DNA of 64,000 nt, from contig NZ_CP008874.1 of NCBI RefSeq assembly GCF_001011115.1, positions 1,812,440 to 1,876,439 on the forward strand, in the 5' to 3' direction. This document shows positions 32,418 to 44,173 of the stretch, piece after piece. The position numbers and the translations under genes were made by a program. Every line of letters starts with the position of its first letter. Position 1 is the first letter of the stretch. The notes beneath the pieces are model-generated. The model was not told the origin of the DNA, ran no database searches, and saw only the letters and a program-made list of their open reading frames with translations. The stretch is from Halanaeroarchaeum sulfurireducens. GTDB lineage: Archaea > Halobacteriota > Halobacteria > Halobacteriales > Halobacteriaceae.

Positions 32418-32891
32418 ATGGCACTCGACGTAGCGGTTCCGGAGCCCCCGGACCTCTCGAACCGGGGGAAGCCTCGTGATTTCGAGTGGGGCGAGGAGAC
32501 GATCGGGAAGGAGGACTTCTACCGCGAGGATCTCGAGGATCTCCTCGACGAGGGCGCGTGGAAGGAGGGATTCAACGAGTGGGCCGAATACACCGATATG
32601 GACGAATCGACGTTCCGGGTCCTCGACGATCTGGGCCTGTTCCAGACGTTCGACTTCTACTGGGATCCCACCGACGACCGTCTTCGGTACGACGCCCCGT
32701 CGATGCCGGACAACTGGCAGGAGCGTGCCGCGACCGAGTCCTTCGATTCGAGCACGGTCGGAATGATCGAAAGCGAGTTGCAGGATCTCGGCCGGGCGGT
32801 GTACGAGACGCTGGAGGACTACCTCGAACGGGGCGACCTGACGTCCGATTTTACCTGGGAGGACGAAACCTACGGCGATCGCGGGGAATGA
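32418..32891 (+). CDS. Conserved haloarchaeal acidic protein, unknown
   Basis: The 157 residues are acidic and Trp/Tyr-rich: RDFEWGEETIGKEDFYREDLEDLLDEG, then DMDESTFRVLDDLGLFQTFDFYWDP and a helical C-terminus ETLEDYLERGDL. No membrane segment, signal or catalytic motif is seen. I do not recognise a named domain; codon use and composition fit a real gene. It stands alone between cspA and the tRNA-Ile repeat cluster, divergent from cspA. Confidence 0.7.
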   Translation: MALDVAVPEPPDLSNRGKPRDFEWGEETIGKEDFYREDLEDLLDEGAWKEGFNEWAEYTDMDESTFRVLDDLGLFQTFDFYWDPTDDRLRYDAPSMPDNWQERAATESFDSSTVGMIESELQDLGRAVYETLEDYLERGDLTSDFTWEDETYGDRGE

Positions 32892-32957: not shown

Positions 32958-33016
32958 TGGGCCAGTGGATTTGAACCACGGTCGCTCCGCTTCGCTTCAC
33001 TCTCTGATTCAAATCC
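32958..33016. repeat. tRNA-Ile 3'-end copy 'a' with inverted T-arm
   Basis: TGGGCCAGTGGATTTGAACC at 32958-32977 copies the 3' end of the minus-strand tRNA-Ile (33438-33459), lacking two bases. It is followed by CACGGTC (32977-32983), 21 nt, then the inverted T-arm TGATTCAAATCC (33005-33016). The same order and spacing occurs beside tRNA-Leu. Confidence 0.85.
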
Positions 33017-33036
33017 GTGGCGACTTCTCTCAGGAA

Positions 33037-33114
33037 GCGACCGGAGTCGCTCGCCGCTCGGGGAAGAGAAAAACGCCAGTGTGGATTTGAACCGGAGCCA
33101 GACGTTCCGGGTCG
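33037..33114. repeat. Hairpin block and tRNA-Ile 3'-end copy 'b'
   Basis: A 23-nt block with the hairpin AGCGAC-CGGA-GTCGCT (33037-33059) is repeated exactly at 33401-33423. After an A-rich GAGAAAA tract comes GCCAGTGTGGATTTGAACCG (33075-33094), which differs at one base from the tRNA-Ile 3' end. Six bases later GACGTTCCGGGTCG (33101-33114) recurs at 33309-33322. Confidence 0.8.
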
Positions 33115-33279
33115 AAGAGGGTGGATTGGGATCGTGGGGATGTTATCGTAGCGTGCCGCGAGGGAACGAAGTGACCGAGCGGGCCGACGAACCCCCGCAG
33201 GGGGTGAGGACGGTTTTTGGTCCAGATTTTGCCAGCGGAGCGAGCGACAGCGAGCGAAGCGCAGCAAAAGGTGGGTGAG

Positions 33280-33423
33280 TGGGCCAGTGCGGATTTGAAC
33301 CGATGGAAGACGTTCCGGGTCGCTCACTCCGCTCGCTTCCCGGGCTGCGAACTTCCAGGGTTCAAATCCATGTCCCATTTTCTCTGCGGAGCCGCGTCGA
33401 GCGACCGGAGTCGCTCGCCGCTC
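33280..33423. repeat. tRNA-Ile 3'-end copy 'c', inverted T-arm and hairpin block
   Basis: The 23 bases 33280-33302 are identical to the tRNA-Ile 3' end at 33438-33460. An inverted copy GGTTCAAATCC lies at 33359-33369 and continues as a rough copy of the acceptor strand (ATGTCCCA). GACGTTCCGGGTCG (33309-33322) and the 23-nt hairpin block (33401-33423) are shared with the copy b unit. The A-tract after the hairpin reads as a T-run downstream of the tRNA on the minus strand. Confidence 0.85.
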
Positions 33424-33437
33424 ATGGAAAGAGAAAA

Positions 33438-33511
33438 TGGGCCAGTGCGGATTTGAACCGCAAGCTTCCACCTTATCAGAGTGGCGCTCTACCTGATTGA
33501 GCTACTGGCCC
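33438..33511 (-). tRNA. tRNA-Ile(GAU)
   Basis: Read on the minus strand the 74-nt sequence starts GGGCCAGTAGCTCAATCAGG and ends TCAAATCCGCACTGGCCCA. The acceptor GGGCCAG pairs with CTGGCCC, the T-loop is TTCAAAT, and the anticodon loop CTGATAA gives anticodon GAU for isoleucine. CCA is not encoded; the discriminator is A. No intron. Just 3' of it lie several degraded copies of its own 3' end. Confidence 0.93.
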
Positions 33512-33691: not shown

Positions 33692-34261
33692 TCAGTTCGA
33701 GTCCTCGAATTCGACCTCGTACGCGTCGGAATCGAGATCGATAGTCTCATCGCTACTGTTCGAACCGCCGGGGGACGGTCCCGATCCCGGCCCCTCGCCT
33801 CCTTGACGGGCGGTACCACCCCCCATTCGGTCGTCGTCCCCGCCGGGAAACCCGACGGTGTACACCCTCCCAGTCGCGAACCCGTCGGTTCGCCGTTCGA
33901 GCATCGGTACGATGACGAGTCGCTTGAGGCCCATCCGAATCGGAACGCGCGTCACCGGGAACGCGAGCAGGAATCCCAGCGCGTCCGTGACCAGCCCCGG
34001 CGTCAGCAGGAACGCGCCGGCGGCGATGAGCATGCCGCCGTCGACGACCTCGTTCGTCGGAATCTCGCCACTGGCCGCCGAGCGCTGCATCCGCCGGAGC
34101 GTGTGTCGCCCCTCCGCGCGGACGAAGAGCATCCCGAGAAGGGCGGTCAGGACGACGAGCGCGACCGTCGGAAGGGCGCCGATGTGACTCGCGACGACGA
34201 CCAGCAGGAAGGCGTCCGCGAGCGGCACCATCAGCAGGGCCGCGAAGAGCCACCGAACCAT
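33692..34261 (-). CDS. fxsA: FxsA-family membrane protein
   Basis: The 189 residues have the FxsA layout: an N-terminal membrane helix (RWLFAALLMVPLADAFLLVVVA), a second (TVALVVLTALLGMLFVRAEG), a cytoplasmic connector RHTLRRMQ, and a further hydrophobic pair (GGMLIAAGAFLLTPGLVTDALGFLLAFP). The last about 60 residues are a Gly/Ser/Asp-rich acidic tail ending YEVEFEDSN. FxsA was named for suppressing F-plasmid exclusion of phage T7; its native role is unclear. Start 34261 is divergent from the thioredoxin-domain gene. Confidence 0.85.
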   Translation of the reverse strand: MVRWLFAALLMVPLADAFLLVVVASHIGALPTVALVVLTALLGMLFVRAEGRHTLRRMQRSAASGEIPTNEVVDGGMLIAAGAFLLTPGLVTDALGFLLAFPVTRVPIRMGLKRLVIVPMLERRTDGFATGRVYTVGFPGGDDDRMGGGTARQGGEGPGSGPSPGGSNSSDETIDLDSDAYEVEFEDSN

Positions 34262-34343
34262 CGTCCACTCTTTGCGGTCGGTTGCATATATCCCTTCGGC
34301 TCGGCTCCGATACGCTTTCCAGGGGTGGATGCGAGGGTCCCGT

Positions 34344-43989: not shown

Positions 43990-44090
43990 TGCGAGGGAAG
44001 GGATTCGAACCACGGTCACAAATCAAAGATTTGTTCCCTGATTCGAATCCTTCCTTCTCGTTTCACTCCTCACTTCGTTCGTCGTGAAAC
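43990..44090. repeat. tRNA-Leu 3'-end copy with inverted T-arm and two hairpins
   Basis: Bases 43990-44011 repeat exactly the 22 bases 44091-44112 of the minus-strand tRNA-Leu 3' end. Then follow CACGGTC (44011-44017), 21 nt holding the hairpin ACAAATC-AAA-GATTTGT (44018-44034), the inverted T-arm TGATTCGAATCC (44039-44050), and the inverted repeat GTTTCAC/GTGAAAC (44060-44066, 44084-44090) abutting the tRNA. The order and 21-nt spacing equal copy a beside tRNA-Ile. Confidence 0.88.
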
Positions 44091-44173
44091 TGCGAGGGAA
44101 GGGATTCGAACCCTCGGACCCCTGCGGGAGCGGGTCTTAAGCCCGCCGCCGTTGGCCGCTTGGCTACCCTCGC
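44091..44173 (-). tRNA. tRNA-Leu(UAA)
   Basis: Read on the minus strand the 83 nt start GCGAGGGTAGCCAAGC and end TTCGAATCCCTTCCCTCGCA. Acceptor GCGAGGG pairs with CCCTCGC, the T-loop is TTCGAAT, the long variable arm is that of a class II tRNA, and the anticodon loop CTTAAGA gives UAA. No intron and no encoded CCA; the discriminator is A. Confidence 0.93.

Follow-up and report, generated by a model that had tools for sequence, protein, structure and literature searches.

The window analysed here, a 64,000-nucleotide stretch of the Halanaeroarchaeum sulfurireducens genome, carries a tRNA-Ile(GAT) gene on the minus strand that is followed by a stack of partial copies of its own 3′ end. A gene for an FxsA-family membrane protein lies upstream of this tRNA (33692–34276, minus strand; Pfam E-value 5.9e-33). 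The stretch copied three times in the stack, GTTCAAATCCGCACTGGCCCA, corresponds to tRNA-Ile bases 53–73. In tRNA orientation, the gene is followed by a hairpin (hairpin 1), an inverted T-arm, a second hairpin (hairpin 2) and a 21/21 copy of the tRNA end. Beyond this copy lie a dispersed repeat in spacer 2, the right arm of another hairpin 2, a 17/21 copy, another hairpin 1, another inverted T-arm, a hairpin 2 of a different family (F3) and a 19-nt copy. An intact unit has the layout hairpin 1, inverted T-arm, hairpin 2 and direct tRNA-end copy. Most of the middle spacer consists of a repeat that has no relation to the units. The published CRISPR repeat of H. sulfurireducens is present in this genome 55 times without mismatch, and 55 spacers are given for strain HSR2-T (PMC4866403); the genome is almost certainly that of HSR2-T.

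The preliminary description of this DNA had listed three tRNA-Ile 3′-end copies in order with the true tRNA at 33438, a short sequence shared by two flanks, and a hairpin block occurring twice, and all of these are present. The shared sequence GACGTTCCGGGTCG (33101 and 33309) reads, on the opposite strand, as the conserved right arm of hairpin 2, and the hairpin block is a 30-nt segment of hairpin 1 found at 33036 and 33400 with 93% identity. The inverted T-arms (33360–33370 and 33006–33016) and the dispersed repeat (about 33150–33279) were absent from that description. This repeat, a multi-hairpin element of the form CCACYTTTTGCTGCG...GGCAAAA...CCGTCCTCACCCCCTGCGGGGGTTCGTCGG on the minus strand, also occurs at several non-tRNA loci in both H. 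sulfurireducens and its congener (L009, L010, L011, L012, L020, L025 and L028). The second unit-carrying tRNA of the window is tRNA-Leu(TAA) (43990–44173 together with its one unit, minus strand), and this unit is also present in the congener with few changes.

Table 1. Features of the two unit-carrying tRNA loci in the window.
Feature	Position	Strand	Basis
tRNA-Ile(GAT), source of the copied 3′ end	33438–33511	-	tRNA model
Unit 1 hairpin 1: starts T-rich directly behind tRNA base 73 and returns with an A-rich arm	33371–33437	-	RNA fold, -27.1 kcal/mol
Unit 1 inverted T-arm, TGGATTTGAAC	33360–33370	-	sequence match
Unit 1 hairpin 2 interior, family F1 (the order-wide conserved core)	33301–33359	-	model hit, E 5.7e-18
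Unit 1 direct copy of tRNA-Ile bases 53–73, 21/21	33280–33300	-	sequence match
Dispersed repeat in spacer 2, unrelated to the units; inner limit approximate	33150–33279	-	also at non-tRNA loci
Right-arm remnant of an F1 hairpin 2, CGACCCGGAACGTCTGGCTCCG	33093–33114	-	sequence match
Second direct copy of the tRNA-Ile 3′ end, 17/21	33072–33092	-	sequence match
Unit 3 hairpin 1, sharing a 30-nt block with unit 1	33017–33071	-	sequence match
Unit 3 inverted T-arm, GGATTTGAATC	33006–33016	-	sequence match
Unit 3 hairpin 2 interior, family F3 (AGAGAG...CGACCGTG)	32977–33005	-	sequence comparison
Third direct copy of the tRNA-Ile 3′ end, 19 nt long, 2 nt deleted	32958–32976	-	sequence match
tRNA-Leu(TAA), also carrying a unit	44091–44173	-	tRNA model
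Unit after tRNA-Leu(TAA): hairpin 1, inverted T-arm, F3 hairpin 2	44011–44090	-	sequence comparison
Direct copy of tRNA-Leu(TAA) bases 53–73, 21/21	43990–44010	-	sequence match

Such units occur throughout the genome. All tRNAs found by the tRNA model in H. sulfurireducens and its congener (86 tRNAs; one genome per species) were searched for copies of their own 3′ ends, which were present downstream of 24/44 and 18/42 tRNAs, respectively, or about half. The matches numbered 94 downstream and 2 upstream, and both upstream matches belong to a neighbouring tRNA-Arg gene. Matches per pair amounted to 1.09 for a tRNA's own tail and to 0.23 for the tails of other tRNAs. The stack at tRNA-Ile is confirmed as genuine rather than a product of chance, since an exact 21-nt match is not expected within a few hundred bases and matches are so unevenly divided between the two sides of tRNA genes. 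The preliminary description had proposed to look for the hairpin block elsewhere in the genome, and the outcome is in its favour: units are present after many other tRNAs, which also rules out a local accident at tRNA-Ile.

The copies have sharp edges, with identity beginning at base 52/53 and stopping at base 73. Among 66 near-exact copies (≤2 mismatches), 55 show an exact identity run of 21–24 nt leftwards from base 73, and in 51 the identity ends within 5 nt past base 73, save where whole units are repeated. At bases 53–63 the inverted T-arm has fewer mismatches to its own tRNA than to other tRNAs (1.64 versus 2.58 ± 0.08), and at bases 62–73 it shows no own-tRNA preference. The units are regular, mostly 75–160 bp long and of one conserved architecture, and most start with a T-rich, terminator-like stretch. 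Their spacers of 54–253 bp are too short to contain an integrase gene. The same hairpin-2 families are found after different tRNAs, each with the end of that particular tRNA, and the set of unit-carrying tRNAs differs even between the two congeners.

Hairpin 2 occurs across the order. Matches to its 62-nt consensus were detected in 120/195 genomes and 43/66 genera, and a same-strand tRNA lies just upstream at 29 of the 30 loci fetched. Outside the order, a phylum-wide sample yielded only two 20-bp matches, and phages, plasmids and viral contigs yielded none. When a covariance model of the core, built without the T-arm, was run against the two congeners, all 41 hits (E ≤ 1e-3) fell within 900 bp downstream of a tRNA on the same strand, where about 0.8% would be expected. 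In an Rfam search the tRNA alone passed its cut-off, and no family was found for the unit.

The fold of hairpin 2 is conserved, with a covariation score of 0.284 as compared with 0.084 ± 0.012 for shuffled controls (0/500), and its internal loops (T-T, CAGC/AC and GA/GA) and GNA tip are nearly invariant. GNA triloops are present on the tRNA strand in 68/91 cores, against 18 expected from shuffles, and GNRA tetraloops occur at the tip less often than expected by chance. DNA mini-hairpins with GNA loops are known for their exceptional stability (PMC4686876). G-U pairs are rare in both hairpins. The arms of hairpin 1 are nearly perfect Watson–Crick palindromes (1126 Watson–Crick, 22 G-U and 29 A-C pairs), and in hairpin 2, for which the tRNA strand gives the more stable fold in 80/101 cases, G-U pairs outnumber A-C pairs (41 versus 22, p = 0.02). 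Because of the GNA tips, the covariation and the rarity of G-U pairs, hairpin 2 probably folds as a single DNA strand, with folding as RNA the lesser possibility.

Copy number differs between species. At tRNA-Ile, where the preliminary description had suggested comparing close strains, clear copies within the family number zero in other genera, one in genus g5, three in the congener, and two or, counting the 19-nt copy, three in H. sulfurireducens. The tRNA-Ile flank of one genome of genus g7 (G025, locus L128) contains an inverted T-arm, a AGTCGCAG...CGTCTGG hairpin and a poor 3′-end copy; judged by eye, it is apparently a decayed unit, which escaped the 5-mismatch search. tRNA-Gly(TCC) has one copy in one congener and five in the other. 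In other genera, four genomes were sampled and carry copies at 2/22, 2/21, 2/22 and 6/25 of the tRNAs examined, which indicates that the genus Halanaeroarchaeum is unusually rich in them. At tRNA-Ala(GGC), the sequence directly after the tRNA in the copy-free congener equals the flank that follows the copy in H. sulfurireducens, and at tRNA-Leu(GAG) the native flank is present once in H. sulfurireducens and twice in the congener. Read by eye, and for these two tRNAs only, as other loose alignments were mostly meaningless, the congener pair shows an empty or pre-duplication flank.

In 10 arrays versus 1, divergence is greater in the copies farther from the tRNA than in the nearer ones (p = 0.012), whereas a rank correlation of divergence over all copies was not significant. 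Identical tandem units are common, as at tRNA-Gly(TCC) (five exact copies) and tRNA-Ile of genome G001 and at tRNA-Leu(TAG) and tRNA-Arg(GCG) of genome G000, and part of the stacking is therefore plain duplication. At tRNA-Lys(TTT), the direct and inverted copies of an orthologous unit have changed in step with the tRNA. Such joint change requires homogenisation by exchange between repeats, or selection, in addition to insertion. The earlier view of the stack as the product of several insertions is thus partly supported and needs qualification: some units arose by duplication, the middle spacer is largely foreign to them, and simple stacking does not explain the changes at tRNA-Lys(TTT).

The combined data suggest a tiny mobile DNA of an undescribed kind, which lands solely at tRNA ends and repairs them. 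We give a probability of about one half to the interpretation that the units are mobile cassettes without genes, whose only point of entry is the T-loop and 3′ end of a tRNA gene and which restore the tRNA end. Such a cassette would carry tRNA bases 53(54)–73, hairpin 1, an inverted T-arm and hairpin 2. Recombination in the 7-base T-loop would insert it, so that the 3′ end of the tRNA remains correct, the old end is pushed downstream as the direct copy, and the T-rich hairpin 1 may serve as new trailer and terminator. The T-arm paired with its inverted copy would form the outer stem of hairpin 2, which probably adopts its fold on a single DNA strand and is the likely recognition site for the recombinase, most likely a tyrosine recombinase. 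Repeated insertion would build a stack in which older units lie at a greater distance from the tRNA. The core site of tyrosine recombinases in tRNA att sites usually has the shape of a loop flanked by an inverted repeat, and the unit junctions coincide with the T-loop, flanked by the T-stem inverted repeat. An insertion at the T-loop that brings a tRNA end and a T-rich trailer would explain the sharp edges, the own-tRNA copies, their direction and the order of growth.

The notion of small elements inserting repeatedly and restoring the tRNA end, already put forward in the preliminary description, is extended by these results to an order-wide family; on the other side, neither an enzyme nor an excised circle nor a mobile donor was found. 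Tyrosine recombinases are present in 25/26 family genomes, with or without tRNA-Ile copies, and correlation with them is uninformative. A search for related loci with the neighbouring protein gave no result. DNA circles of about 100 bp would be mechanically awkward, and the duplication of the native flank at tRNA-Leu(GAG) looks as in ordinary tandem duplication; both count against cassette insertion.

A process without a dedicated enzyme could be envisaged, in which the hairpins behind tRNA genes cause template switching at the replication fork, with the T-arm and the inverted T-arm as landing sites, and unequal crossovers between the 21-bp repeats then amplify the units and keep them alike. 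The tandem units at tRNA-Gly(TCC), the duplicated flank at tRNA-Leu(GAG) and the co-changing repeats at tRNA-Lys(TTT) all agree with it, the near-perfect arms with few G-U pairs are what palindrome correction would yield, and short direct repeats mediate deletions in the haloarchaeon Haloquadratum (PMC3119063). We nevertheless regard it as unlikely, for it accounts neither for one conserved hairpin-2 core that follows many tRNAs order-wide and is found nowhere else, nor for the conserved unpaired motifs of that core. It is also rather improbable that the units are structured RNA trailers under selection, for example steering 3′ processing or giving a small RNA with a tRNA-like end. Covariation with conserved internal loops, the greater stability of hairpin 2 on the tRNA strand, its excess of G-U over A-C pairs and the invariable placement of units downstream on the same strand fit such a role. 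However, copies follow few tRNAs in the other genera sampled and the carriers differ even between congeners, so that no tRNA needs a unit. Hairpin 1 has no G-U excess, a terminator-like stretch opens most units, and Rfam has no corresponding family. RNA structure as the sole explanation is weakened by the scarcity of G-U pairs and by GNA triloops in place of RNA-type tetraloops.

Integrated haloarchaeal elements duplicate tRNA 3′ ends (PMC3119063, PMC7921747), as seen in Haloquadratum prophages with duplications of 22 and 43 nt (PMC3119063), and the copies might be leftover att sites of large viruses or plasmids deleted to scars. The regularity, small size and single architecture of the units disfavour this explanation, as do the absence of hairpin 2 from the phages, plasmids and viral contigs searched and the absence of farther tRNA-end copies (≤2 mismatches) in 14–36 kb around integrase genes, and we consider it very improbable. 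The resemblance to tyrosine-integrase att sites in the tRNA genes of haloarchaeal proviruses and integrative elements lies in the duplicated 3′ part and the restored tRNA function. As in tRNA-targeted integrative elements, the tRNA 3′ end is directly repeated at the junction of the units, but they contain no integrase gene; they are about 100 bp long, gene-less, tandem and palindromic, and none was found on a virus or plasmid. In Haloferax gibbonsii LR2-5, 11 partial tRNAs are noted as remnants, and several of them lie directly beside the full gene (PMC7921747). These probably represent the same phenomenon, although the portions of that report available to us count them without describing unit structure, hairpins or order-wide spread (PMC7921747).

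Among other known systems, integron cassette arrays likewise grow at one fixed site, and, in a layout resembling that seen here, each of their units ends in a chiral imperfect hairpin with AAC...GTT within its outer stem and an inner mismatch loop; the tRNA-linked units differ in being gene-less and in having a tRNA as the site. Integron attC sites recombine through the bottom strand. Compared by layout rather than with an attC model, hairpin 2 folds similarly, with a strand bias that is weak and opposite, toward the top strand. An integron proper is ruled out, as no integron integrase (TIGR02249) scored over the cut-off in any of 26 family genomes. REP/RAYT elements (PMC3733652) and the IS605-type haloarchaeal PATEs (PMC3119063) are also small non-autonomous DNA hairpins, but the units show no GTAG/CGTC-tagged REP architecture, and neither strict confinement to tRNAs nor a 21-bp copy of a tRNA is reported for those elements (PMC3733652, PMC3119063). 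Like MITEs and REPs the units are dispersed, yet solely after tRNAs.

The tandem repeats downstream of E. coli tyrT (rtT) carry the 3′ end of the tRNA gene; they differ from the units in being confined to a single locus, in lacking the inverted T-arm palindrome and in not being spread over many tRNAs. Casposon-type elements encode a Cas1-family integrase and create a target duplication of 14–15 bp, whereas the units are gene-less and duplicate 21 bp. No description of the hairpin units was found in the literature searched, which included work on E. coli rtT and tRNA arrays and excluded most subscription papers.

More tentatively than cassette insertion itself, one may picture an order-wide, integron-like system of haloarchaea, in which folded single-stranded DNA hairpins are recombined into T-loops, every tRNA is a possible entry site and each cassette brings a tRNA end and a new terminator. 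If gene-less cassettes do enter at tRNA ends, haloarchaeal tRNA genes would be entry sites for tiny non-coding elements, overlooked since they resemble short intergenic repeats, and the units would offer a new example of folded-DNA recombination, account for the 'partial tRNAs' beside tRNA genes in haloarchaeal annotations and preserve a natural record of tRNA-end turnover. The question bears on why tRNA 3′ ends are preferred integration sites.

Two further observations concern sequence exchange and motif likeness. At the tRNA-Met loci L051, L054 and L091 (G000 and G001), one hairpin 1 is joined to differing hairpin-2 families in neighbouring units, and stems carry block-wise compensatory changes (GAGGAGAC-GATA-GTCTC versus GAGCAGCC-GATA-GGCTG), as if interchangeable modules had been linked at T-arms to make up these units. 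Beside the tRNA-Ile stack, an open reading frame (32418–32891) contains GACGTTCCGGGTCC at 32611–32624, which matches the hairpin-2 arm motif at 13/14 positions, probably by coincidence.
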